NCBI GenBank assembly: GCA_963965975.1
Contig: OZ014411.1
Span: 6,681,001 to 6,745,000, forward strand
Direction of reading: 5' to 3'
DNA: 64,000 nt
Origin: Xestospongia bergquistia
Lineage: Eukaryota > Porifera > Demospongiae > Haplosclerida > Petrosiidae
In this document: positions 1,226 through 63,743 of the stretch, in pieces
Numbering within the stretch: the first letter of the stretch is position 1
How the letters are laid out: every line of letters begins with the position of its first letter
The notes under the pieces: model-generated
Told to the model about the DNA's origin: nothing
Databases searched by the model: none
What the model saw: only the letters and a program-made list of their open reading frames with translations
Program-made: the position numbers and the translations under genes

Positions 1226-3767
1226 CAGAGCCTCCAAGCGTACGGATTTATCCGTATTTTGTATGGAACTGCGCTATAAAATATGGAAACAACGATGCAG
1301 TATATGGAAATTATGGGAAATGGCTGACAATGGTGGGGCAGCACAGGCCAGCGGTCCCTCTCCCAGCGTCAGCGATGGCCTGGAGAGTATGGACTCTGAG
1401 TTTCACAAGTGAGCACAAGGAATCTAGTAGTAGCTATGTGAGTGCTAGTAGAGAACTTCGACCGCTGCCTCCGAAGAGGGGAAAACTCGGGACTGGGAAA
1501 CTCAAGTCAAGCTAGCAGTTGCCCCCTTATATCACTTCCAGTTCTAAGGGAACCAGATTCGCCTTTTGCAAGGTGTGTACGAGTAACTTTTGTATTGCCC
1601 ACGGAGGTTTCAATGACATCAAGCGTCATGTAAATGGGCCAGCACATAAACGTAAGCTAACAGAGATGGGGCAGACTGAGCGCATAGACAGCTGCTTCAC
1701 AGCCAACAAAACGCATGCCAAGAGAGTCACCTCGGCTGAACTAATCATGTCACAATTTATTGTCGCGCATAACATCCCTTTCCAGGCTATTGATCATCTT
1801 ACTGATTTGTTTAAGGCCATGTTTCCTGACTCTAAGATAAGCACACAAAAACAAAGGCAATAATCTGTGACGCGCTCGATCCCTATCTAAAATTGCCAGT
1901 CTTAGAGACTGTGAGAGCTGCTCCCTGTAGAAAAATAACACTTTCTACAGATTGACTTAATGTATTGTTGTGTATGTGTCTTATCATAACCACAAATATT
2001 AATTAACTCTGTGTGTTATTATAGTGTGTTCTTAGAATGTTCTAGAAGGTTCTGGTGTATTATCTTTGCTATATAAGTTTTGATTTGTGTACTCTCTTGC
2101 TGCTCAATCCTTTGAATTGTTAATATTATACTCATTTGAATCTTCAGTAAAACTCTCAACACTCCCTTCAACCTTTTGTGTGATGAGTCCAATGAGAGAG
2201 GAGATCAGGTGAAGCTACTAACTATACTCATTCGCTTATATGACCCCACTGGTGGTAGAGTGGTCACGCATCATCTTGACACAGTAGGAATAGTGGACTT
2301 AAGTGCTGAAGGTATCTTTACTGCATTAAAATCAGTCTTAGAAGTACACCAGCTTCCAATCTCGAATCTAAGACACATGCAATGTAATGAAAGGCAAGAA
2401 GAATGGTGTGATTGCTAAATTACGTGAATTATAGCCTCGCATCATGGACATAGATTGCATTTGTCATTTGGTAAGCTTTTGTGTCAAAACAGCCACCAAA
2501 CAACTCCCACTGAAGATCGATGAGTTGTTGGTAGATATTTACTACCATTTCCGGTTTAGTGCTAAAGGATAGCTGCACTGCAAGATTATGCAGACTTCTG
2601 TACAATTGAGTATAAGTCTATCCTGAAGCATTGTGAAACAAGGTGGCTCTCACTCAGACAATTCATTCAGCGTACATTGCACATGTGGGAACCCCTCTGC
2701 TTCTATTTTCAGAGCCATTGTGATGTTGAAAAGCCTGGCAAGGTTAGAATTATTAATACCATCCTTCAGCAACCACAGACTAAGTTGTGGTTTTGGTTCT
2801 TGTTGAATACATTGGCAGTTTTTAACAAATTTAATATATATTTCCAAACATCATCTACGTCTACTATACACAAGCTCCAGGGAGAGAGTGAGAGGCTCCT
2901 TAAAATTGTTCTTTCTTTTTTCATCAAGCCTTGCATTATAATTGACAATTCATCTGATCTTACAAGAGTTGATTACTTGAGTGAATACAATATCCTTTCC
3001 CATGAAGATGTGTTTATTGGAGATGATACTGCTGCTCTACTGTTACACCTGCAGGAGAATGAGAGAGAAATTGTTGGTAGCTTTTACAAGCAAGTTATCA
3101 AATTTTATCAAGCTTTTGTCAAGAAACAACTGAAGTCGTTCAATTTTCAGTCTCCAGTCCTGCACACATTATCTTTCCTAGACCCCATAAAAGTACAAAA
3201 CTGCCTCTATCCACATTTGATCTGATCGAAAATTCAATGACTGTCTCATTTGATAAGCAGCAAACAAAACTAGAGCGTCAGGATTTTGTTAGTGATGGAA
3301 ATGTAGTCCCTTCTAATGACGAAAAGGCTGTTGACTACTGGTACAGAATTTTGCAAATGCGATCACCCATGGGAGAACAATTGTATCAAAACCTTGCCAC
3401 ACTAGCTCTTCAACTACTCTCAATACCTGCTTCAAATGCAGACAGTGAAAGGGTGTTTAGTTTAGTCCGTAGAATAAAGACTGATTTTCGGTCATCGCTT
3501 CAGACAGAAACTGTCTCAGCTCTTATTGGATATCATTTTAACAAGACGTGTCATTGCTGCGAACAATCATCATTTGAAGACTCACTACTATCAAAGGCAA
3601 AATCATGCACTAATGAGAGAAACATCTCCTATAAATCTTAACATTCAATATTTTTTGTATATCATTGTTCATCGTTGTCTAAGAAATTTATACTGAAATA
3701 TGATAGAAAAATACTGATACAGATAAAAATTGATACTGAAAGAGTCTCACTCAACTTGGAGGCTCTG
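1226..3767 (+). mobile_element. hAT transposon with 6-bp target site duplication
   Basis: Terminal inverted repeats CAGAGCCTCCAAG (1226) and CTTGGAGGCTCTG (ending 3767) are directly flanked by ATCTTT on both sides (1220-1225 and 3768-3773). Inside, in plus orientation, are pieces of one hAT transposase. Most hAT elements make 8-bp duplications, but subgroups with 5 or 6 bp are known. The related copy at 11161-11654 also has a 6-bp duplication, which makes the length credible. About 1960-2170 appears to be a foreign insert within the transposase frame: it begins TGTATTG, holds a TATA-like GCTATATAAG, and could be a small solo LTR. Confidence 0.85.
1519..3641 (+). pseudogene. hAT-family transposase, broken
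   Basis: The first piece (1519-1863) has a zinc-finger-like C-x2-C...H...H segment (residues about 17-45, motif FCKVCTSNFC then HVNGPAHKRK). The second (from about 2173) has the conserved CDESNERGDQVKLL block of the RNase-H-like core. The third (2677-3225) covers the helical insertion. The last (3237-3641) is the hAT C-terminal dimerisation domain, with NADSERVFSLVRRIKTDFR. The pieces lie in different frames, with an in-frame stop near 1861, an inserted non-coding segment at about 1960-2170, a frameshift near 2385 and a stop at 3223, so no functional protein is made. The family inserts DNA by cut-and-paste. The order and spacing fit one decayed gene filling the element. Confidence 0.85.
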
Positions 3768-7649: not shown

Positions 7650-8527
7650 AGCTAAAGCTCAACATACACTAGGCAACTTTTTGCTAGCAAAAAGTTGCCT
7701 AGTGCTACATGATCTAAGCAACTGCCAGCAACATGTTGCCACAAGTTGAACAGCTTTCAACTTCTGGCAAAATGTTGCCAGTCAACTTCAAAGGTTACCA
7801 TGGAAATGGATTGGCATGTGATAATATTTACTAAAAGAAGGTGTGTCTTTCTAAAAAAAATGGCAAAGGAAGCTCACGAAAACAAAATTACTGGAAAAAG
7901 CTATTGCATACATGGAGAAGGAAAGTGATTGTGAACAAAAGGAAAAGGATGATGATATTTTCAGGAAATTTGTTGCTTCTGAACTAAGATCAATTTGTGA
8001 CACTATCACAAACGTATGAAAAAGTGGAAAATTCATTCTGTTCTTTGTGGTATCGATTCAAGCTGCTCTAATGCTACACAGGCTCCACCTCAGGCTGCTC
8101 CATGGTTTCCTTCATTCCAATATCCAGTCCCTGGAAATTCAATGCAGTTTAGATATGGCTCGAATTCACCATCATATTCTGTTCAAAATTATGAATCTAG
8201 TAACAAGAAAGTGTTTGTAACTTATTTCACCACCTAATTGCAGTTCTCTTAGAAGCTGGTGATAAGCTCCTTGTGCAGGATGATTTCTAATCCAATCTCT
8301 GACCCATATCCTCCTGTTTCTCCTCTTCCTTCTCCTTCTTGCAAAAATAATGTACAGTACAACTGCAGCTGCAGCTAAAGTTCGCGCTGCCATTTTATTT
8401 ATCAAACTAATAAATTACTTGGCAACAAGTTGTAACAAGTTGCTACAGTGTATGTTGGTTTGGCAATAAGCAATTTGTTGCTAGCAACTTTTTGAAACAA
8501 CTTGTTGCCTCTAGTATATCATATGCT
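7650..8527. mobile_element. PIF/Harbinger-type non-autonomous element
   Basis: Both ends abut TTAA (7647-7650 and 8527-8530), consistent with the TTA/TAA duplication of PIF/Harbinger. The ends carry related inverted sequence (ACTAGGCAAC...TTGCTAGCAA on the left, and its inverse near 8465-8515). Two coding remnants face each other. On the plus strand (about 7918-8200) is an acidic/Lys-rich region with DIFRKFVASELRSICD, like the Myb/MADF-side accessory protein. On the minus strand (8172-8405) is an Arg-rich stretch followed by WVRDWIRNHPAQGAYHQLLR, like the N-terminus of a HARBI1-type transposase. The middle of both genes is gone. Confidence 0.7.
8172..8405 (-). pseudogene. Harbinger transposase N-terminus, truncated
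   Basis: About 77 codons: a short hydrophobic stretch (residues 8-21), then ARRRRKRRNRR and IWVRDWIRNHPAQGAYHQLL. The RR-W-V-x-P/D-W-I...G-AYH-xLL-xEL pattern is characteristic of HARBI1-like DDE transposases, just before their helix-turn-helix. No DDE domain follows. It lies inside the element at 7650-8527 and faces the accessory-protein remnant, as in intact Harbinger elements where the two genes are separate. Confidence 0.65.
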
Positions 8528-27579: not shown

Positions 27580-29372
27580 TTAACGTGTAAAGTACTGTCT
27601 TCTATGCGCTATGAGTCAGCAAGTAAAAATGCAACACAATTAAAGAACACTAGAGGTATGAATTCTTATACATGCACTGTTATTTGTATACAAAAGTATT
27701 GACTATTTCAGTACTAAATCAATAATACACAGTGATTAAAATTATTTTATAACAAGCATATTAATAATACTTACCAGTTGAGCTTCATAATGTTTCCACG
27801 TCTATGTCTGATGAGAAGTCATCTGGTTTGAAAGACATCTAACTACATCCTAGTAAAGGAAAAAATGTCAATTATTTGGAAGATCAAACAATATTATAAT
27901 TATAAAAATTGTTCAAAGATTATATGATTATATTACTGTTGCTACAAGGAACTGCTGCTAAGTTTCACAAAAAATTCAGTTCTTGTCAGCTTACTAAGAA
28001 AAAAATTATTCAACATTCATTTATAGAATATATTCAAATTGAGGGCTCTAATGGAAATAATGTGTCCTAAAACAGAATAGTTGGCTGAAGCTATAAAAAT
28101 GGTGAAAATTTCATGTGAATTCTTTAAGGCTACTAAGCTTAGATGAGGATTTAAGAACCTTCTCTGTTTTTCTATATTTTACAAGAGCTCAAGTTAAGAA
28201 TATTAGTTACTGAATAGTCACTCCTATATGTCAGTCAGTCAATTTATCATTGTCATTTAGAAGCAATCATTAGCTAAGACATGCTTATTACACTCACATA
28301 GCAACAGAACAAGCTTATTTTTAGTGCTAGGATAAGTAATCTAATTGTAACTTAGCAACAATATCATAAGATGTAATTTATTTTATATGGATATAATATG
28401 TATACATGCAGCTATCTAAAATATCTTTAACTTTGACATCCCAAAAAAATGAAAATAGTTTTCATATTCAAATGTAACTATCCAATTTGATTTCCCTGAC
28501 ATTTATAGCTCTTGAAAAGCAATAATAGCTTGTGTTTTGACAATAAAAATGTGAGTACTCTTGACTTTTTAGAAGTGGATGATAGCCATAAATAAGATGA
28601 CAATAAAGAAACACTTATAACTTCTGACTTTAGGAGTTTCTTGCTCTAACTTAGTAGGTTGTACAGTATGTTGATATTTTAAAAAGCTATAGCAAGATTA
28701 AGGAGATATATAAACAGTTGTTCACTAAAAAATTTTTAAACCTTTGAAACTAACATAATTTAGATTATTTGTTAACATTTCATTAAGACAAAACCCTTCG
28801 ATGTGGGCAATATCCATACCCATTACATATGATTATAGCTAACAATGATGAATTATTCATCAACCACATTTCATATGCACCACTGATAAATAACTTATCA
28901 GAAAAAACACTTTAATGAGCTTCTGTCAGACAAGGCTATAAGTGGATTGTGGTCTAAATAAGTTATAATCTTCCTTGTCATGTGCTAGTGTGACCTCTCT
29001 GTGTGGCCATAGTCACTATATTAAGTACACAATGTCCTCAGATTCAGACTAAAAATATTATTTTAAAAACACTACAAAGTACTATCAGCTAGGCTTATTA
29101 GGGTGTACACAAGGGTTTTGTGGCTATGTTTTAAATTTTAAATTCATGAAGGAAAAGGATTTGATTGCTAAATTTTAATAATTTTACTGCATCATCAAAT
29201 ACCTACAAGCCTAATAAAAAGTTACAAGCAGTTGAAGTAAAGTCCAGCAGTCCAATCCAATCCACTGTTAATAGACTCCTAGGAACCTAACATCTTACTT
29301 TTTAACTACAATATCCTTAACAAGGTTAACACTTATATAAGTATTAATTAGTGCTAAGGTGACTGGACTGTG
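27580..29372. repeat. Segmental duplication, copy 2, left part
   Basis: Collinear with 12,350-13,215. Shared words include AAAAATG.AA.A.GATTA, ACAAGCATATTAAT, ACATCCTAGTAAAG, AATTATAAAAATTGT, and near the right edge GGTTAACAC...ATTAATTAGT. Copy 2 has extra sequence (28,000-28,900) including a dispersed repeat. It ends at the foldback element, which was inserted into this copy only. Confidence 0.6.
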
Positions 29373-29451
29373 GGGTCCTTCTTGGTGTAACTTGCCTATG
29401 ATGACATCAATGATGACATCGTATGACATCATAGGGTTAATAATGGTAGTG
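29373..29451 (+). repeat. Left terminal inverted repeat, 79 bp
   Basis: Starts GGGTCCTTCTTGG and contains three spaced ATGACATC words plus AGGGTTAATAATGGTAGTG. It matches the inverse of 36406-36484. The repeated TGACATCA motif is itself near-palindromic and is a plausible transposase-binding site (inference). Confidence 0.85.
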
Positions 29452-29472
29452 TGATGGGATTGTAAATAATAC

Positions 29473-31777
29473 TGGTATTGCAAGTAATACTGGTATTTTA
29501 GGTAATACTGGTATTCTAGGTAACACAGGTATTGTAGGTAATGCAGGTATTGTAGGTAATATTGGTATTCTAGGTAATACTGGTATTCTAGGTAATACTG
29601 GTATTCTAGGTAACACAGGTATTGTAGGTAATGCAGGTATTGTAGGTAATATTGGTATTCTAGGTAATACTGGTATTCTAGGTAATACTGGTATTCTAGG
29701 TAATACAGGTATTGTAGGTAATACTGGTATTGTTGGTAATACAGGTATTGTAGGTAATATTGGTATTGTAGGTAATACTGGTATTGTGGGTAATACTGGT
29801 ATTCTAGGTAATACTGGCATTCTAGGTACTATTGGTATTGCAGGTAATACAGGTATTGTAGGTAATACTGGTATTCTAGGTAATACTGGTATTGTAGGTA
29901 ATATTGGTATTGTAGGTAATACTGGTATTGTGGGTAATACTGGTATTCTAGGTAAGGCTGGCATTCTAGGTAATACTAGTATTCTAGGTAATACAGGTAT
30001 TGTAGGTAATACAGGTAATACTGGTATTGTAGGTAATACTGGTAATACTGGTAAAGTAGGTAATACTGGTATTGTAGGTAATATAGGTATTCTAGGTAAT
30101 ACAGGTATTGTAGGTAATACTGGTATTCTAGGTAATACAGGTATTCTAGGCAATACTAGTATTGTAGGTAAAAATGGTATTGTAGGTATTCTAGGTAATA
30201 CTAGTATTGTTGGTATTATAGGTAATACTGGTATTGTGGGTAATACTGGTATTGTAGGTAATACTGGTATTGTAGGTAATACTGGTATTCTAGGTAATAC
30301 TGGTATTGTAGGTAATACTGGTAATACTGGTATTATAGGTAATACTGGTATTATAGGTAATACTAGTATTATACGTAATACAGGTATTGTAGGTAATACT
30401 GGTATTGTGGGTAATACTGGTATTGTATGTAATACTGGTATTGTGGGTAATACTGGTATTCTAGGTAATACAGGTATTGTAGGTAATACTGGTATTGTGG
30501 GTAATACTGGTATTGTAGGTAATACTGGTATTGTGGGTAATACTGGTATTCTAGGTAATACAGGTATTGTTGGTAATACTGGTATTTGGGTAATACTGGT
30601 ATTGTTGGTAATACTGGTATTGTAGGTAATACTGGTAATACTGGTATTGTAGGTAATACTGGTATTGTTGGTAATACTGGTATTGTAGGTAATATTGGTA
30701 TTGTGGGTAATACTGGTATTCTGGGTAATACAGGTATTGTAGGCAATATTGGTATTGTAGGTAATACTGGTATTGTAGGTAATACTGGTAATACTGGTAT
30801 TGTAGGTAATACTGGTATTGTGGGTAATACAGGTATTGTAGGTAATACTGGTATTGTGGGTAATACTGGTATTCTAGGTAATACTGGTATTGTTGGTAAT
30901 ACTGGTATTCTAGGTAATACTGGTATTGTGGGTAATACTGGTATTGTGGGTAATACTGGTATTGTTGGTAATACTGGTATTCTAGGTAATACTGGTATTG
31001 TTGGTATTGTAGGTAGTACTGGTATTGTGGGTAATACTGGTATTGTAGGTAATACTGGTATTGTGGGTAATACTGGTATTCTAGGTAATACAGGTATTGT
31101 AGGTAATACTGGTATTCTAGGTAATACTGGTATTCTAGGTAATACTGGTATTGTGGGTAATACTAGTATTGTTGGTAATACTGGTATTGTAAGTAATACT
31201 GGTAATACTGGTATTATAGGTAATACTGGTATTCTAGGTAATACTAGTATTATAGGTAATACAGGTATTGTAGGTAATACTGGTATTGTGGGTAATACTG
31301 GTATTGTATGTAATACTGGTATTATAGGTAATACTGGTATTCTAGGTAATACAGGTATTGTAGGTAATACTGGTATTGTGGGTAATACTGGTATTGTAGG
31401 TAATACTGGTATTGTGGGTAATACTGGTATTCTAGGTAATACAGGTATTGTTGGTAATACTGGTATTGTGGGTAATACTGGTATTGTAGGTAATACTGGT
31501 ATTGTAGGTAATACAGGTATTGTAGGTAATACTGGTAATACTGGTATTGTAGGTAATACTGGTATTGTTGGTAATACTGGTATTGTTGGTAATATTGGTA
31601 TTGTGGGTAATACTGGTATTCTACGTAATACAGGTATTGTAGGTAATATTGGTATTGTAGGTAATATTGGTATTGTAGGTAATATTGGTATTGTAGGTAA
31701 TACTGGTAATGTAGGTAATACTGGTAATGTAGGTAATACTGGTATTGTAGGTAATACTGGTATTGTAGGTAATACTT
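29473..31777 (+). repeat. Left minisatellite arm, 18-bp unit
   Basis: Roughly 128 unit-equivalents of GGTAATACTGGTATTGTA, with variants at the last codon (GTA, CTA, GTG, GTT, ATA) and occasional ACA for ACT. Extra 9-bp half units (GGTAATACT) occur, for example at 30010-30060, 30310, 30630 and 31200. Because 18 is a multiple of three and the unit has no stop in most frames, long open frames arise on both strands (GNTGIV plus strand; LPTIPV minus strand). These are by-products of the repeat, not evidence of a protein. Confidence 0.95.
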
Positions 31778-31911
31778 GTAAGTCAATAAGTGATAACAAC
31801 ATTTGGTATTTTATATACTCTCTTCGCAGTAATAATAATAGAATAATACTGTCTACTATGTAATATGTTTGATTATGTTGATTACATTAGAACTGAAATT
31901 AATGCAATGGT

Positions 31912-33460
31912 CTATATATACATATTGATTTTTCTTAATGTTTTTTTTATTATTATTTTATTTGTGTTCCAATCAAGTTGATTTTTGCACAGCCTTTGGA
32001 AGGTAGCTAGATTTTTTTGGTGCATGACGAGAAATTTACTTATGTCCTTTTCATTTTTCTGACTTAGAGGTAATGCAGGACTGGACACTATTGTTGATGC
32101 TAAAATTTGTCTATATAATAGTGACATGTTTTCTGGAGTAGGTTCTATTGCTTCTTCCTCACAGTAAACTAGTACATTTTCCTGAACAAAATACTCCATG
32201 ATAGTTAATGGTCCTGCTGATAAATGTTCCTGCTTACCATCTGCAAATTCAATACTACTGAGGTGACGAAACATTTGCCATTCATGCTTCCTCCTTTTGT
32301 GTTGTTGGACTTCATGTACTACTCTTTTCCAAGTTTGTTACCACAGTTCTTGCAACGACAATATTCAGAACAAGCTCTTTTGCTTTTCAAGCAAGCACAA
32401 CAGATGACTGTTGTATACTTACACTTTATTTCTTAGCAATGGGGTTTGTCTTCTTTGTCATTTTTTCCACAGCTACATGTCAGATGCACCTTTGGAGTCT
32501 GATCACCTTTACTCTTAATGAGTACCCCATCATAATGCCCAGAGCCATACTGTGTAATGCTACCATAATTGGCATAGAAATTGTCTGTGTGCATGGTGAT
32601 ATACAGAAAACTGGATGGCATTCAATGGATGAAAATACTATTATGGTAGTTTGAAGAGCATTTGATAATGCCAAAATCATTGTGTCTGCTAGGTCCCTGT
32701 AGTAGAATCCAGAGGCTAGAAACTTGGAAGCTTCTTGCTGAATGTCCACACTAGGCACGAAGTCTTGATAGTAACAATAATTCTCAGTCACTCAGCTACA
32801 GCAAGATATCTAAGTTCAGTTGCTATGGCTTGCATATTCATTGATAGATCAATTCCACATGATAGCAGAAACTGTTTTCACATGTTGGGTTTGTACTGAT
32901 GGTGATCAGACCAAAAGCCACAGCTGTAAAACAGCAATTGCCATCTCCTTCAATTTCAGCAAATGCCTTTTTGACATAGCCCGTGTTACACACTGTACTG
33001 CATGAAATACGTCTAACTTCACAATTGTGTCATTTCCAAATATTAACTTCAGCTTGGATCGAATAAGACAACAGTTGTCAACGTATATTGTCAAATGGCT
33101 ATCTTCAGAAACTTTGGTTCTTTCTTTTAGACTACACAATAGCGATTACACTTCATCAATTGAGGTTGAGTTGGTAAATTGCCAAGTTACAACTTCACCT
33201 TCTTCATTCAACACTATAAACACACTGCCATACTGGGTGACCCACCTTCCATCAGGTCGTAAATATCCAATATTTGATGCCACCTTAAATGTGTGGTCTA
33301 AACAGATGCTTTTTCTTATGGATAAATTGATCACGCATATGTGCAGAATAAATGTCTTCATTTTGTTAAAAGTGTATAATGAAACATTGTGCAATAATGT
33401 CATTAGATGGAAATGGTTGTGCAATGGAAGAAACAGAGGTTGAGGCAGTGAGGGAATCAA
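31912..33460 (-). pseudogene. Transposase-like gene with OTU-protease and Cys-cluster motifs, damaged
   Basis: In order along the minus strand: ICLDHTFKVASNIGYL (about 33,300; first Asp of a DDE-like core) running into GRWVTQYGSVFIVLN; after a frame change TIYVDNCC (about 33,080; second Asp), then VKLDVFHAVQCV; then, after an apparent internal deletion, EIEGDGNCCFTAVAFGL (about 32,900-32,965), the catalytic-Cys motif of OTU proteases; LADTMILALSNALQTTIIVF; after another frame change QYGSGHYDG (catalytic His); CSCGKNDKEDKPHC; and past a stop CCACLKSKRACSEYCRCKNC, a CXC-like cysteine cluster. The third acidic residue of the core is missing. The layout resembles transposon-encoded proteins of cnidarians and sponges. 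This copy looks dead. Confidence 0.7.
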
Positions 33461-33708
33461 TTTCTGATTGTGTCAATTATTTACCAATGCAGCTGCAGTC
33501 TTTTACCAATTTGACAATTAGTTCAGCAGCATACTCTTCTCGTAGGCTCTGAATATGTTGAGCAATTGCTTTTATCAATTGTTCATAGTATAAACCTTCA
33601 CTTATATTAAGCTACTTGCTAATAAATATACCATTCCTACTTCAATACAAACGTAACAATAATAAAATAACCATTTAGCACTATTAACTAAAGTACAAGT
33701 ATTTCTTA

Positions 33709-36402
33709 CAATACCAGCATTATGTACAATACCAGTATTACCTACAATACCAGTATTACCCACAATACCAATATTACCTATAATACCAGTATTACCTAGA
33801 ATACCAGTATTACCTAGAATACCAGTATTACCTATAATACCTGTGTTACCTAGAATACCAGTATTACCTACAATACCAGTATTACCTACAATACTGTATT
33901 ACCTATAATACCAATATTACCTACAATACCTGTATTACCTATAATACCAGTATTACCTATAATACCAATATTACCTACAATACCTGTATTACCTATAATA
34001 CCTGTATTACCTAGAATACCAGTATTACCTAGAATACCAGTATTACCTATAATACCTGTATTACCTAGAATACCAGTATTACCTACAATACCAGTATTAC
34101 CTACAATACCTGTATTACCTACAATACCTGTATTACCTACAATACCTGTATTACCTATAATACCAATATTACCTACAATACCAGTATTACCTATAATACC
34201 AATATTACCTACAATACCTGTATTACCTACATAACCTGTATTACCTATAATACCAGTATTACCTACAATACCTGTATTACCTGGAATACCAGTATTACCT
34301 ACAATACCATTATTACCTATAATACCAGTATTACCTACAATACCTGTATTACCTATAATACCAGTATTACCTACAATACCTGTATTACCTGGAATACCAG
34401 TATTACCTACAATACCATTATTACCTATAATACCAGTATTACCTACAATACCAGTATTACCTACAATACCAGTATTACCTAGAAGACCAGTATTACCCAC
34501 AATACCTGTATTACCTAGAATACCAGTATTACCTACAATACCTGTATTACCTAGAATACCAGTATTACCTACAATACCAATATTACCTAGAATACCTGTA
34601 TTACCTAAAATACCTATATTACCTACAATACCAGTTTTACCTACAATACTTGTATTACCTAGAATACCAGTATTACCTATAATACCAGTATTACCTACAA
34701 TACCAATATTACCTAGAATACCTGTATTACCTAGAATACCTGTATTACCTAGAATACCAGTATTACCTACAATACCAGTTTTACCAACAATACCAGCATT
34801 ACCTACAATACCTGTATTACCTAGAATAGCAGTATTACCTACAATACCTGTATTACCTAGAATACCAGTATTACCTACAATACCAGTATTACCTACAATA
34901 CCTGTATTATCTAGAATACCAATATTACATACAATACCAGCATTACCTACAATACCTGTATTACCTAGAATACCAGTATTACTTACAATACCTGTATTAC
35001 CTGGAATACTAGTATTACCTACAATACCATTATTAACTATAATACCAGTATTACCTACAATACCATTATTACCTAAAATACCAGTATTACCTACGATACC
35101 TTTATTACCTAGAATACCAGTATTACCTACAATACCATTATTACCTATAATACCAGTATTACCTATAATACCTGTATTACCTAGAATACCAGTATTACCT
35201 ACAATACCATTATTACCTAGAATACCAGTATTACCTAAAATACCTGTATTACCTAGAATACCAGTATTACCCACAATACCAATATTACCTAGAATACCAG
35301 TATTACCTACAATACCTTTATTACCTATAATACCAGTATTACCTACAATACCTGTATTACCTAGAATACCAGTATTACCTACAATACCTGTATTACCTAG
35401 AATACCTGTATTACCTACAATACCAATATTACCTACAATACCAGTATTACCTACAATACCTGTATTACGTAGAATACCAGTATTACCCACAATACCAATA
35501 TTACCTAGAATACCAGTATTACCTAGAATACCAGTATTACCCACAATACCAGTATTACCCACAATACCTGTATTACCTAGAATACCAGTATTACCTACAA
35601 TACCTGTATTACCTAGAATACCAGTATTACCTACAATACCAGTATTACCTACAATACCAGTATTACCTACAATACAAGCATTACCTACTATACCTGTATT
35701 ACCTAGAATACCAGTATTACCTAGAATACCAGTATTACCTACAATACCAGTATTACCTAGAATACCTGTATTATCTACAATACCAGTTTTACCTATAATA
35801 CCTGTATTACCTAGAATACCAGTATTACCTATAATACCAATATTACCTACAATACCAATATTACCTACAATACCAGTATTACCTACAATACCAGTATTAC
35901 CCACAATACAAGCATTACCTACAATACCTGTATTACCTAGAATAACAGTATTACCTACAATATCATTATTTCCTACAATACCAGTATTACCTAGAATACC
36001 TGTATTACCTAGAATACCTGTATTACCTACAATACCAATATTACTTACAATACCAGTGTTACCTACAATACCAGTATTACCTTGAATACCAGTATTACCT
36101 ACAATACCAGTATTACCTAGAATACCCAGTATTACCTTGAATACCAGTATTACCTACAATACCAGTATTACCTAGAATACCAGTATTACCTTGAATACCA
36201 GTATTACCTAGAATACCAGTATTACCTACAATACCTGTATTACCTACAATACCTGTATTACCTTGAATACCAGTATTACCCTAGAATACTAGTATTACCT
36301 AGAATACCAGTATTACCTACAATACCAGTATTACCTACAATACCTGTATTACCTATAATACCATTATTACCTTTAATACCAGTATTACCTACAATACCTG
36401 TA
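33709..36402 (-). repeat. Right minisatellite arm, 18-bp unit, inverse orientation
   Basis: About 150 unit-equivalents of the reverse complement of the left-arm unit (TACAATACCAGTATTACC). Some variants are specific to this arm: CCATTATTACC and CCTTTATTACC, a CCTTGAATACC cluster at 36,080-36,260, and single-base slips that break phase at about 33,893, 36,126 and 36,280. A 672-codon minus-strand frame runs through most of it; as in the left arm, I treat this as repeat-derived. Confidence 0.95.
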
Positions 36403-36405
36403 TCT

Positions 36406-36484
36406 CACTACCATTATTAACCCTATGATGTCATAATATGTCATCAATGATGTCATCATAGGCAAGTTACACCAAGAACCACCC
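36406..36484 (-). repeat. Right terminal inverted repeat, 79 bp
   Basis: Inverse of 29373-29451. It ends ...CCAAGAACCACCC at 36484, directly followed by the target duplicate GGACTGTG at 36485-36492. The outermost GGGT is conserved and the next two bases differ between the ends (CC against GG). Confidence 0.85.
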
Positions 36485-36840
36485 GGACTGTGTCGAGGTC
36501 ACTACTCTTAGTTAGTTAACTAGCAAAAACGCTATAAGTCTATGTACCTCGATTAACAGTAATAAAGTCCAAGTTTTCGGCTGGCGTATGGTTTGTCTAA
36601 AGGTAAGAAAGAAATGTCTCAAACACGAATCAGTAAGTATATTTGTAACTTATAATAATATATAGAAAAACAGATAATATAAAATAGTTTTAGGAAAAAT
36701 ACTTACTAATACAAGAGAAGAGCAGTGAACCCATAAATCATGACATCTGGCCATCTGCTAGCATGCGGTTCTAGTATTCGAAGTGCGCATGCTCACAACT
36801 TTAAACCACACCTTAACATTTAATACTACAATGCAACTGG
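36485..36840. repeat. Segmental duplication, copy 2, right part
   Basis: Matches 13,195-13,600: GAGGTCACTAC, the (G)GTATGG..TGTCTAAAGGTAAGA block, AACAGATAATA.AAA, and GCGCATGCTCACA. On the minus strand it shows the same exon-donor arrangement (TTAGTAAGTATT near 36,703) and an acceptor near 36,600 (CTTACCTTTAG). No protein-coding frame is conserved between the copies. Confidence 0.6.
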
Positions 36841-44322: not shown

Positions 44323-47300
44323 AATTAGCAACAAGTTGATTAATTTTAACTAGACTAAAATGTGACTACCACAAAATGTAATCTTAAAAGCAAACATAAA
44401 AGGAATGATTTTGAGATGACATGCAATGCAAACGCAAATGAAAAATTAGGAAATAAGTTTTATTTCAAAACAATTTCCTACACCAGTAATTGTAATAATG
44501 ATTTATATATATAACAATTGTTCATAATGTTCATTTACCTTGAGTAACAGTTAGTGTAAGTATATCCATAGGACCACTTGAAGATGAAAACATTGCTGAA
44601 AGATGAGTACTACTTGCCAAATGGTACGGAGTTTTAAAAACTGTGTCTATATGAAAATGATAATAAAGATATGCTGATCATGAAAACCACATCAGTAACT
44701 ACATATGCTACTACTATATAAAATGAACTGTTATGAAAAATGTATATACATGTCAGAATTAGTAATAAAACTAATTAAGTTTGATTAGACTAAAGTGTGA
44801 CTACCACAATATATGATCTTAACAGAAAATATAAGAGTAATGATTTTGAGACGACATGCAGTGGAAAAGCAAATAAAAATATAAGAAGAAAAATATTTAT
44901 TTCATAAAAATTCCCTTTGTCAATAATTTAAATAACAATTAATAAGATTATGATTTTGTTATCATAAATGTACAATGGTAATGTACAAGAAATTCATTAA
45001 GAGTCCAAAATTGATTTTTATTTCCATAACAACCACAACATATCAGTAATTCACATTGACCTGAACAGGTGTTAAAAAGAAAATGAGAAAATCTACCTTT
45101 AATTAATCCAACTCTTAAGAGGTAGATGGCAAGTAGCTAGAAATTTAATAACATTATAGTTACTTGTACAAACTTTGCAAATTGCATCTAGCCTATATTT
45201 ATAAAGTGAAATCATTATTGATTATAAAATAATTACCATTGCTTCTTGGAACATTAATTGGATTTAACTTCATGCCACCAACATAACTGTACCCTGCATA
45301 CATTGTCCAGCCATAGATAGAGACAAACAATTTACCATTTGGGTTAGGATGTGCTATTGTATTGGTACCACTAAAACTTGTTGAATAGCCATATCCATAG
45401 ATAGAACCATCTGAAGCATATATCAGAACCCATGGTGGATTGATAAGATTACTGTTGATCAACAAACTCTTGTTAAAATAAGAATCATTTGGTATAACTA
45501 CACTGTAATAACTAGTACTACACGACTGAAATGCAGAGAACTGGGTGGAGTGTTCATATTGTTCTATTGGTGGCACTGTGTTAAGGGAAGGGTCACCATA
45601 GTTGCCACCAGCATATTGTGTACTAACACCAATTTGAGCAACATAGATTGGTTGATTAGAGACAATACTACAATATACTTTGTTAGCTGTGTAAAACCAA
45701 TTGGTATTGTTTTCATCAAGTTTGAGATGTTCTGATGTGTAATGTGTACCACATGTTTTGACTGCATTTGTTTTATTGCTAGTAGCAATCACTTTATAAC
45801 TTTGTCCATTGCTTCGATCCATGTGAAGTGGTAATAGAAATGTCTTTCCCCATGTTATTGTTGGTGTCAGTTGTGTAACAATAGGGTCAGCATCAAAAGT
45901 CCCAGCCGGAACTCTGGCAGCTTCATGTCCACTGATAATTGTAAGTGGACTGTCAGATATAATTTTGGTTCCAGTAAGATCAACATGAGGCTTAGAAACA
46001 AATAATGTCTGAAGTGAATGAAGAACAAAATTGAAGGTGTTTCCAGCTGAAACAATTACATTAACAGCAGCACTGTCTTGAGGATCTGATGGAACAGTAA
46101 TGTCATTGTTTGGAATGATAGTCACATTACTGTTATTAAGGCAACCAATAATCATGAACTGACTTGTCTGATCACTCCAACCAAATGTAGACACAACATA
46201 GTATGTGTATTGAGTTGTTGGTTGTTTATGACATGGTAGTGCTAGATAAGACATGAAATCTGACTGAGTACGGTAGCTCCATGCAATAACTGATATTGGC
46301 TTTGTGTCTAGAGAGTAAACTTTAAGACCCTTTCTCCTCCAGAAATAAGTATGATCTAACACTTCATAACTTGCTGGTACAGCAACTTTATCAGGGTTGT
46401 GATAACTAGTTTTACCAATATATGAAAATTTGTTATCAAATGATGTGACTTTGAAAGTAACAGGAGATGTTTTCATCGTATGAACATACAATGTACGTAC
46501 AGTAGATCTAAATACATGGTTATAGAATCCCACAAAGAACTCACTACTATATGTGTTGAGGTCATTCTGTGGGTCTATAAGGAAGAACATAACATTTAAA
46601 TAATTATATTAAAGAAGACTTGATTTATTAATATCAGTTAGCATGAGCTGAACAAAATGTAGTTAAAGTATTAAAATTCTTAAAAATAAAGTAAGTGAAG
46701 TGACGGCTTAGTCCATTAAAGAAACACAATATAAGATGATAGTTGATAAGTGAATAACTTGTATTCTAAACTAAAATGACAATGTTGAAATGACAAGTGA
46801 TAAAAACATATTAAACAAGCCCAAAGTAGGAATTGTAACAAGGATATCTTATAGTAGCCATAGCAATAAGGTTATAATGCATATTTGTTGCAATAGTTGC
46901 AGATGAATTTGAGGCAAACAGTCCAACAAGAAGTCTAAAGTAAAAGGCTATTCAACTAGACCAAAAATTAGATTTTGTTACTAGGAAATGGTTGCATCAC
47001 ATTGCCATTAGAATTGTGCTCACAACATAGCTAGCACAACGTATATTCAAATATAATTATTGTACTCAGGTACTTTTGTGTGGCTACTATGCAAAACATG
47101 CATCAACATGTCTTGATCTACACAAATATAGTACCTTTTACAGTACAGGATCCTGTTTAAAGGTATACAAATTACAATAAAAGTGATTTTTAAATTTTCC
47201 TTGCTGTTTCAAAACTTACTACATTGTTCTGTCACATTAGTATTGTTAATCATAAAGTTTCCTTGACATTGTCCACAGTTGTCAAGTACACATTTTGCAT

Positions 47301-50300
47301 CAGGAAAATTAGAACATGTTTGATAATTACATGGATTAATAGGACAATATAACAGGGGCTTATCAGGAGGACATGAACCTATTATAAATAAGTAATGAAC
47401 GTTCTTTTAATAATTATCAATACATACTGCAACTGTTTGTGACATTGTGACCAGAAATGTTAAAGAAATGAGCTGAACATTGACCACAACTTGATGGTAC
47501 ACATATAGCATCAGGTATGTTTGGACATTGTGCTATGTCACATGGATTGTCTAGACATTGTACATGTTGAATGTCACTTTTACACTTTCCACCTGTCATA
47601 AAAAGTATCATATTGAAATAATGTTTTCATAATTATTATAATTTTTATCAAGTGTTTTTAACCAAATACATATAACAAGTCTAGAATACTAAAATACTTA
47701 CGACACTGTTGTAGACAGTTATGTAAAGTTTCAAAGTTGTTTTGGTTACCGTTACAACCACCATATGTGAATTGCTGGCATCTACCCACAGCATGGTTAT
47801 AATACCATCGAGGAACATTGTTAGTACATGGACCACTAACTGGTATTAACGAACACAAGTCTACAGAAAATGCAATGAAATTGAATTGATAAGTTATAAA
47901 TAATTATTAATTGTTAATATTTCTGTATAAATTTGTAAATGGCATAATCATAGCTGTGTTTTGGTGAAAGAAATAATTATTGCATGTAAAATTATTACCA
48001 TAGCTTCTTTGAATGTTAATTGGATTTAACTTCATCCCTCCAACATAACTGTACCCTGCATTAGTTGTCCATCCATAGATAGAGACAAACAATTTACCAT
48101 TTGGGTTAGGATGTGCTACTGTATTAGTACCACTAAAAGATGTTGAATACCCATATCCATAGATAGAGCCACCTGAACCATATATTACAACCCATGGTGG
48201 ATTGGTAAGATTACCATTGATCAATAAACTCTGGTTAAAGTAAGCATCATTTGGTACAACCACACTGTAATAACTAGTACCAATTAAAAGCAATGAAGAG
48301 AACTGGGTGGAGTGTTCATATTGTTCTATTGGTGGCACTGTGTTAAGGGAAGGGTCACCAAAATTGCAACCAGCATATTGTGTACTAACACCAATTTGGG
48401 CAACATAAATCGGTTGATCAGAAATAATACTACAATATACATTATTGGTTGTGTAAAACCAGTTTGTGTTGTTTTCATCAAATTTGATACGTTCTGATCT
48501 GTAATTTGTACTACAGGTTTTGACTGCATTTGTTTCATTGTTAGTAGCAATCACTTTGTAACTTTGTCCATTGCTTCGACCCATGTGTGGTGGTAATAGA
48601 AATGTCTTTCCCCATGTTATTGTTGGTGTCAGTTGTGTAACAATAGGGTCAGCATCAAAAGTCCCAGCAGGAACTCTGGCAGCTTCATGTCCACTGATAA
48701 TTGTAAGTGGACTATCAGATATAATTTTGGTTCCAGTAAGATCAACATGAGGCTTAGAAACAAATAATGTCTGAAGTGAATGAAGAACAAAATTGAAGGA
48801 ATTTCCAGCTGAAACAATAATATTAACAGCAGCAGTGCTTTGAGGATCTGATGGAACAGTAATGTCATTGTTTGGAATGATAGTCACATTACTGTTATTA
48901 AGGCAACCAATAATCATGAACTGACTTGTCTGATCACTCCAACCAAATGTAGACACAACATAGTATGTGTATTGAGTTGTTGGTTGTTTATGACATGGTA
49001 GTGCTAGATAAGACATGAAATCTGCTTCACTACGGTAGCTCCGTGCAATCACTGATATTGGCTCTGTGTCTAGAGAGTAAACTTTAAGACCCTTTCTCCT
49101 CCAGGAATAGGTATGATCTAACACTTCATAACTTGCTGGTACAGCAACTTTATCAGGGTTATGATAACTAGTTGTACCAATATATGAAAATTTGTTATCA
49201 AGTGATGTGACTTTGAAAGTAACAGGAGATGTTTTCATCGTATAAACATATAATGTATGCTTTTTAGAGTCATGTACATGCTCATGGAATCCCACAAAGA
49301 ACTCACTACTGTATGTACTGAGGTTATTTTGTGGCTCTATAAGGAAGAACATAACATTTAAATATATAGAAAAAGTGTAATTATAAAGATCAATTCTGAT
49401 GAGCTGAACTTACAATATGAAGTGCAGGGATGTTCTAATGGTAATTTATTATGTAATTAATTACAAGTTTGAAATATTGGGAATTGTAGCGAAAAATATA
49501 TTTTATTTTTCAATGAAATTGTAACAGTAATTGAATTCTTTGTCAAACAATGTAATTAAAAATATAATTACTTCAATTACTAAAACTTATAATAAAACTA
49601 ACTGCATGGATACTTTGGCAGTCATTAGCTTATTGAACTATGAAGTGTTACAAGAAGCAGCTGAAGTGATACATGTGCTTTTATTCTCACCTTTGAAATA
49701 ATAGCATTTCTAATAAATGATATAAGTTGTTATATTGTTGGTAATTGTATAATTCATTAAAAATTAATTAGGAATTTTTGTACTAATGGCAATTGTTATG
49801 GTAATAGTAATTGTTGGTGACAACAATGGTAATGAGATAATCATAAAGAAATAGTAATTGTAATTATTACAGAATAAAGTAATTAACAATATACTTGATG
49901 TAGTGATGTATCATACTTTTAAATAAGTAAAGGAATGTAAGTATAGCAATATCTTACTTCATTAAAGAAAACGTAATATAAGATTATAGTAGGGATGGTT
50001 ATAGTAATATTATTTTATATAAAAGAACAATGTATACCAGTAAATACAATTTTAAAAAATTATTAAATGTAAGAATAAAGCATCTTAAACTAGTCCAAAG
50101 TAGGAATGGTAGTGTGGACATACCTCCATAATTGGCACAATACATTATTACTATGTGTTTAATACCTAGAGATATCCATGTTGTCCTTCTTATATATTAT
50201 GGGCTTGTTTGAGTTGTTGGTACTGTTATCTCTATATTTAATGAAATATTATAGAAACTTTTATCTACTAGTTTGTGTAAGTTTTATTTTAATTATATAA

Positions 50301-62322: not shown

Positions 62323-62688
62323 ACAAAAAGCCAACTATCCTGAAAATTTGGCTTATTGGAAATGAACAGGATAGTTAAGCTTGAGGTATCCTGAAGTTTT
62401 ACTGTACCTATCCTTGATGCAGTATATGTCATATTTTGGTCAACTAATGATATCAGAAATAATTTGTCACCTATAATGTGTCAAATCTGTCACCTATTAG
62501 TAGCTGTAGGATAATGGATAGATAGATCACATTTGGTTAATATATAGATCATGAGGTATGAATATTATTGAATTTAATTTATTACATTAATTAATGCTAA
62601 GTTGTGCTATAGTAATAATACATGAAAATTTTGTCTGAGCACAAGTGTGAAAAATACATTATTATTTAAGAGAACAAAGATTTCTTCA

Positions 62689-63743
62689 CTCTATAAGAGG
62701 TATAAGTTGTAGCAACCATTCGTCATTGATACAGATCTTTGAATATGAACAACACTGCTTTATTAAGTGAATAGGAACAAAACAATAATAACTTGGATGT
62801 TCAAATTTGTCAGCACACCAGATCTGCACAGGCTTACCTATCCTACCAAATTGTTGATGGGGGAGATACCACAAACAAACAGCTATTGGTAAGTTTGAAA
62901 CCTCATCTCCAACACTGAAAGAAACAGAACCAAAGTGATGTATCTTTACAGGACGAAAGCTACTGTTGCATTCTAATTGGTTATACAAAGGAGTAGGAAA
63001 TGGTCCAAAGATCGTTTCTCTGATGCTCATATGAGTTTTCCAAATTTCTCCATCATAAACATCAGTTAAGTTTGTACTGTCTTGACGATTAATCCACTGT
63101 CTACATAAGTCGATAAAACCAGGACGTAGAAGCATTTGCTGTATATACATTTTCAAAGGGTAATAGCAGTAAACTTTTAATGGGTAGTAAATACACTTGC
63201 CAGATGAAAAACAAACAGACTTCAACAAAGCAGAACCACATGGTTGACGAAATCTCTTTATAGGATGGTTAGGAAATTGATCGTTTAAGCACCTGCAGTT
63301 CCCTTGTGAAAGTGAACATGAGACATGTTCATGGACAGTAAGACATTCTGGACAAACAAAATAAGATGAAACATTCGACTTGTATTGGTGAACAGTTATT
63401 TTTTTAGCCATATATAATGAAGTTGGAAACTTGTTAAAATGTGAGTTGAATGTTGAATACTTTGCCATAATTGTGAATACTTTCGACATAAACTTAATCA
63501 ATTCATCAATGGCATTCTCAGGAATGTAATGTTTTCCTTGAAGCCTAAGAAGAAACAATACAATCCAAGTAGCTAAAGCAGCAGCCTCAGTAACAAGTTC
63601 ATTTGAATTATGCTCAGGTGGTGTTGGTTGTGAAGGAGCATTGTTGATCTCTTGTTCAATGTCACTGTCATAATCTTCAATATTCTCCCAATGCTCCTCT
63701 GTAAAAACAAATTTTCTTGCAAAAGATAATATTAGAATTCACC
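62689..63743 (-). CDS. CACTA/tnp2-like transposase, exon 2, catalytic core deleted
   Basis: Exon from 63698 (acceptor TTTACAG/AG) to a stop at 62686. It opens EEHWENIEDYDSDIEQEINN and continues into FPTSLYMAKK, FVCPECLTVHEH, FPNHPIKRFRQPCG, YYPLKVYCYYPLKMYIQQML, LRPGFIDLCRQWINR and DVYDGEIWK, the N-terminal half of tnp2/Transposase_21-type proteins of invertebrates. It should then enter the DDE core, but after about residue 225 it goes straight to a C-terminal module (FIPVxxI-like CFVPIHLIKQCCSYSK) and stops. So the frame is intact but the core is missing: a deletion derivative that may still express a DNA-binding protein. Confidence 0.7.

Follow-up and report, generated by a model that had tools for sequence, protein, structure and literature searches.

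A 7112-bp element at positions 29373-36484 of the stretch of Xestospongia bergquistia DNA analysed here (64,000 nucleotides of contig OZ014411.1, positions 6,681,001 to 6,745,000; hereafter, the window) is very probably a non-autonomous, internally deleted member of a family of foldback-type cut-and-paste DNA transposons. By its structure it is a foldback element, and by its transposase it stands nearest to the IS256/Mutator lineage.

The element starts with GGGT and ends with ACCC. Its left terminal inverted repeat (TIR; 29373-29450, + strand) is of the GGGTCC type and its right TIR (36405-36484, - strand) of the GGGTGG type, referred to below as the CC end and the GG end; the two show five mismatches in the first 78 aligned positions. 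An exact pair of 8-bp target-site duplications (TSDs), GGACTGTG, flanks them at 29365-29372 and 36485-36492. An initial annotation, made from the letters alone, had described 79-bp TIRs beginning with GGGT and an exact 8-bp duplication, and its coordinates proved to be exact. It had also described inverted minisatellite arms of 2.3 and 2.7 kb, which were recovered by Tandem Repeats Finder in opposite orientation: a left arm at 29455-31780 (+) of about 132 units of 18 bp with the consensus GGTATTGTAGGTAATACT (18 bp x 132.3, score 3129), and a right arm at 33682-36403 (-) of about 151 inverted units of the same repeat (18 bp x 151.2, score 4019). The arms are 81% complementary along 1337 nt, ungapped, and this would permit the suggested hairpin of more than 2 kb only as an imperfect duplex. 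No Rfam family reached its gathering score within the window.

The genome was searched with an 87-bp TIR query, as the initial annotation had advised, and further copies with 8-bp duplications were found as predicted. The search gave at least 42 matches, a lower bound because 40 of 44 candidates were scored; a stretch identical to the 87 bp of the left-TIR region of the window copy is also present at C4:8989207. Thirteen of the 42 matches lie within six two-armed elements of 3621 to 8284 bp, namely the window copy, L031 (C8), L032 (C12), L033 (C4), and L034 and L035 (C6). All six have long inverted arms of short tandem repeats, the size of which varies between ends and copies (28 to 193 parsed units, up to 3.5 kb), and five of them carry an exact 8-bp TSD, each of a different sequence (GGACTGTG, AGATTTAA, GCTATTCA, TTATTACT and CAACAAAC). 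The foldback family that had been postulated is thus present in the genome. Furthermore, the arms are nearly private to it: a 36-mer of the array, searched with up to 3 mismatches, had 1447 genome matches (672 + 775) and 0 with the reversed pattern as control, and 1272 of them (607 + 665) fall inside the six elements.

Long regions around 15 of the remaining 29 TIR matches were examined (L036-L050), and 11 of these hold array units in clusters of at least two. Both ends are present in L045, where the flanks CCATTTTG and CGATTTTG agree at 7 of 8 positions. Six TIR copies (L038, L039, L040, L042, L043 and L046) have the same 18 bp upstream, with one base different in L042, which suggests that they probably represent one insertion multiplied inside another repeat. 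At L047 (8966-9393) lies a remnant without a centre, in which a cluster of 16 forward units runs straight into 5 reverse ones and a TIR follows.

Empty sites were searched by joining the flanks with one copy of the TSD, for five elements (the window copy and L031-L034). Paralogues running through the junction were found for L033, L034 and L032, and eight of them were examined (for L033 the full list of four, for L034 two out of many, and for L032 two out of five). All eight are continuous across the TSD, with its letters identical in six and one change in two; their identities range from 89 to 98%, and some of the alignments cover the right flank only in part. The insertion of L032-L034 is supported by these empty sites, which, together with the exact TSD in five of six copies, demonstrate the mobility expected of a foldback element. 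It should be noted that two results weigh on the other side: no TSD was found at the ends of L035, and for the window copy and L031 the genome search for an empty site returned only the two flanks of each.

The 18-bp unit

The unit, GGTATTnTnGGTAATAnn, is built as a 9-bp repeat of GGTAWT plus a spacer. We parsed 1539 complete units from the 12 arms, skipping partial ones. In each of the 12 arms, the deviation from consensus is 0.6-2.7% in the GGTAWT cores and 14-22% in the spacers. In addition, 8 of the 18 possible variants in the spacers reach 2% of units, vs 1 of 36 in the cores (Fisher p 0.0006, computed on variants seen at least once). This pattern fits a constraint on GGTAWT as a putative binding motif, with the caveat that the frequent variants may be few and ancient. 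Two points speak against such a constraint. The spacer positions were chosen after the data had been seen, and the rare unit types give another picture: of 147 such types, 58 are more than one step away from any common type and did not enter the test; the remaining 89 are a single step away, and 34 of these 89 changes fall in spacers vs one third expected (p 0.37). Mutation looks even across the unit and the spread of variants does not; therefore, the argument for GGTAWT depends on the identity of the variants that have spread.

The evenness of rare variants along the unit is also what favours the strongest alternative, in which the arms are passive by-products: an 18-bp minisatellite that arose near the TIR would have been expanded by slippage and then duplicated at the opposite end, without taking any part in transposition. 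The wide range of arm sizes agrees with this, and L033, the copy with the shortest arms, still has an exact TSD. Against it stand the difference between cores and spacers, repeated in each of the 12 arms, and the near confinement of frequent variants to the spacers. We give this alternative a substantial chance, somewhat short of even. As to the source of the repeat, the inner TIR edge TAGGGTTAATAATGGTA resembles TAGGTAATACTGGTA at p ~0.06 with dinucleotide shuffles and 0.03-0.04 with plain shuffles, which is no more than suggestive of a minisatellite seeded by that edge.

A protein-coding function of the arms was considered and rejected, since the GIVGNT frame is as conserved at its third codon positions as in the rest of the core (0-2.0%). 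The arms do contain long open frames (755 aa); all but one of the 101 matches listed for the 755-aa frame in a protein search, capped at 7996 candidates, carry the collagen repeat domain PF01391, and we read them as low-complexity matches, with no bearing on the arms of other species.

The transposase gene and its lineage

The gene that the initial annotation had placed between the arms is there, but only as a broken remnant (31957-33596, - strand), in seven pieces with stops. The pieces match residues 138-351 and 622-958 of P0001, a 960-aa relative; residues 1-137 and 352-621 are missing, and the invariant E437 falls in the latter gap. In the fullest copy, that of L031, the gene is broken into two frames (235 and 718 aa), and the other five elements have in common a deletion of ~0.8 kb that removes roughly residues 352-621, E437 included. 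The centres of L032-L034 measure 1581-1583 bp and are ~99% identical to one another; at their two edges, sequence of the 3' edge of the gene makes an inverted repeat that is 92-94% identical over 95 columns. A genome search with P0001, which disregarded introns, gave 25 matches, 23 of them inside the six elements, and recognisable remnants of this transposase family are almost only found in such elements in the assembly. The remaining two matches overlap at G000:C1:11838639-11839329 and represent one decayed distant relative, 31-32% identical. Over the 435 codons common to the six copies, 55 nonsynonymous and 20 synonymous two-state changes were counted (random nonsynonymous expectation 0.759), a pattern with no sign of purifying selection, as would be expected if the copies were moved in trans. 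Sixty-one protein relatives were found; a search of viral and prokaryotic contigs confirmed no relative, and PHROGs gave none.

From the predicted fold and conserved residues we infer that the transposase is a DDE enzyme of the IS256/Mutator lineage that also carries an OTU cysteine-protease domain at its C-terminus and a cysteine-rich, CXC-like motif. With residues 11-476 of the P0001 model, which has an IS256-type DDE fold, the best Foldseek match was ISCth4 (PDB 6xgx, 6xg8; E 5.2e-07, identity 13%), of the IS256 family of bacterial insertion sequences; integrases and Mos1 matched at E 0.047 or worse. The 8-bp TSD lies within the range of 8-11 bp of IS256/Mutator elements.

Several observations count against this assignment. 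The NCBIfam IS256 profile matched 4 of 19 relatives, weakly and with P0001 not among them, and NCBIfam also matched ISLre2 (2 members, 0.0034) and IS481 (1 member, 0.023). Among the 21 Pfam families listed for the 19 relatives, no Mutator/MULE family appeared at E<=1, perhaps because the family may be too divergent, and the only matches of transposase type were to ISL3 (HTH_Tnp_ISL3 in 2 members, best 0.024; DDE_Tnp_ISL3 in 1 member, 0.13). A profile search of PDB sequences returned no transposase at E<=1, and phmmer with the L031 frame against PDB returned RNase HI alone (E 0.37). The CXC-like stretch is mostly of low confidence in the model and is proposed from its cysteine pattern and weak Pfam matches. 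No intact transposase copy was seen, and the family may or may not be active at present.

The weakness of these sequence-level matches in the catalytic part, and a TSD of 8 bp, would also suit another superfamily with duplications of that length (hAT, P or KDZ/Zisupton), the TSD of Zisupton being 8 bp (PMC12730594). The ISCth4 match, far above those of integrases and Mos1, and the IS256 profile matches argue otherwise. No hAT, P-element or KDZ family (E<=1) is among the 21 Pfam families, which does not imply exclusion, and superfamilies absent from the fold match list were likewise not taken as excluded. The Dimer_Tnp_hAT model is not among the Pfam families listed for the 19 relatives, though it detects a separate hAT transposase remnant elsewhere in the window (3081-3641, +; E 1.5e-11). 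Altogether, we regard a placement in one of these other superfamilies with 8-bp duplications as improbable.

Inheritance of the arms and probable inversion of the centre

The end markers are asymmetric in all six elements, with GGGTCC at one end and GGGTGG (once GGGCGG) at the other, so that arms could be compared by side. In L031-L034, all six pairs of GG arms share runs of four units at a level reached by 0 of 200 shuffles, and so does one of the six pairs of CC arms (L032-L034). The CC arm of L033 is closer to the GG arms of L032 and L031 than to other CC arms, and that of L032 resembles the GG arm of L034 slightly (0.09). The two arms of the window copy, the two of L035 and the CC arm of L031 have at most 3% of four-unit runs in common with any other arm, most of these pairs being without an individually reported shuffle comparison. 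The arms therefore follow their side in descent and change quickly, while the element centres remain 94-99% alike.

The opposite arms of one element have 28% of their four-unit runs in common in L033 and 31% in L034, values that none of 500 shuffles reached in either case, and blocks of 204 and 470 bp are exact between them; this is arm-to-arm copying. Such exchange is not visible in the window copy, L031, L032 or L035, four of the six elements, which counts against the main explanation. In the window copy no four-unit run is common to the two arms (longest common run, three units; shuffle mean 0.005), and therefore neither arm was copied from the other. Long tandem arrays are difficult to assemble, and the initial annotation had considered that the two arms might be one mis-assembled array. 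Such an artefact, with a single array doubled as its own inverse, is made extremely unlikely by this difference in unit order, by six loci that each have flanks and arm lengths of their own, and by the empty sites at three of them.

The 5' end of the gene points toward the CC end in L031-L034 and toward the GG end in the window copy and L035. In the centre alignment, 31 sites split these two groups, and therefore one inversion on the branch of the window copy and L035 suffices. Recombination between the inverted arms is the simplest cause of such an inversion; instead of it, the terminal markers may have been swapped by conversion.

The reading as a foldback-type transposon moved in trans would work as follows. 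A transposase supplied in trans would recognise the TIR, and probably also the GGTAWT motifs that recur along the arms at 9-bp intervals, cut the element out and insert it with an 8-bp stagger. Between jumps, slippage or unequal exchange would turn the arms over fast; as mutual inverted repeats, the arms would recombine within the element, so that blocks are copied from arm to arm and the centre can invert. The fuller proposal is that a clade of IS256/Mutator-lineage transposases, so far undescribed and fitted with OTU deubiquitinase and CXC domains, binds a 6-bp motif, GGTAWT, of which the arms (one motif every 9 bp) are arrays kept by selection, and that the inverted arms also serve for recombination, repeatedly exchanging blocks between arms and turning the gene around between ends that stay fixed and asymmetric. 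Taken jointly, these claims are tentative, and we rather doubt that all of them hold.

Elsewhere in the window there are two similar long frames on the - strand (45199-46608 and 47907-49409), the first with an IgGFc_binding match (E 2.9e-43) and the second similar to it by eye, and a 350-aa frame (62686-63738, -) in which visual inspection showed a cluster of cysteines and to which Pfam gave no match at E<=0.1.

Comparison with known foldback elements and OTU-bearing transposons

The initial annotation had likened the element to the foldback elements of Drosophila (FB). The likeness holds for the structure, but FB as nearest relative is unsupported, and the transposase points to IS256/Mutator. 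ISCth4 itself is not known to have an OTU or CXC-like part or minisatellite arms. A transposase of the Mutator lineage with OTU and CXC, or a foldback element of a sponge, was not found among the items listed in literature searches, judged by titles and the starts of abstracts, and an earlier description may exist.

Tm1 of root-knot nematodes, a Mutator/Foldback family, has composite TIRs made mostly of short tandem repeats in variable number (13-15 bp in Tm1), terminal motifs that are asymmetric between ends, TSDs mostly of 8-10 bp, and a Mutator-type transposase in some copies, many others being non-autonomous (PMC3169594). In all this the sponge element resembles it, and it differs in its 18-bp repeats, in arms of up to 3.5 kb and in a transposase with OTU and CXC-like parts. 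A FLYWCH zinc finger together with a MULE domain defines the Phantom subclass, FLYWCH being typical of its transposases (PMC3169594); neither is among the Pfam families of the 19 relatives.

Galileo, a foldback-like element of Drosophila in the P superfamily, has in common with the sponge element two TIRs that change length independently through internal tandem repeats, recombinant copies, and the proposal of extra transposase binding sites in the repeats (PMC3573991). The inverted repeat at the centre edges of L032-L034 recalls the extension of Galileo TIRs by recruited internal sequence (PMC3573991). Unlike the sponge element, with its IS256-like fold, 8-bp TSD (in five of six copies) and 18-bp repeats, Galileo has a P-type transposase, a 7-bp TSD and repeats of ~210 bp (PMC3573991). 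Tetris of Drosophila virilis is likewise a foldback element with tandem repeats inside long TIRs and TSDs of 8-10 bp, for which its authors suggest a place in the IS256/Mutator lineage; it differs in repeats of ~220 bp, in that no transposase has been found in it, and in repeats that also form satellite arrays (PMC4079207), whereas in the sponge 1272 of 1447 array matches lie inside the six elements. Among transposons, Ginger1 and Helitrons are known to carry OTU domains (PMC2836005). Like the sponge family, Ginger1 joins a DDE transposase to a C-terminal protease domain (OTU or Ulp1), but its catalytic domain is Gypsy-integrase-like (PMC2836005) and the fold of the sponge family matches ISCth4.

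How foldback elements acquire and keep arms of tandem repeats is an unsettled question, and the authors of the work on Tetris and Galileo have put forward additional sites of transposase binding and TIR-to-TIR recombination (PMC4079207, PMC3573991). A single genome with six copies, gene remnants, asymmetric end markers and a readable order of units offers a natural test of the origin and change of foldback elements, as arm inheritance, arm-to-arm copying, inversion of the centre and constraint on the motif can be read from the sequence of these copies. If it is true that OTU and CXC-like parts are joined here to an IS256-like transposase, this would be one more case tying DNA transposition to ubiquitin.
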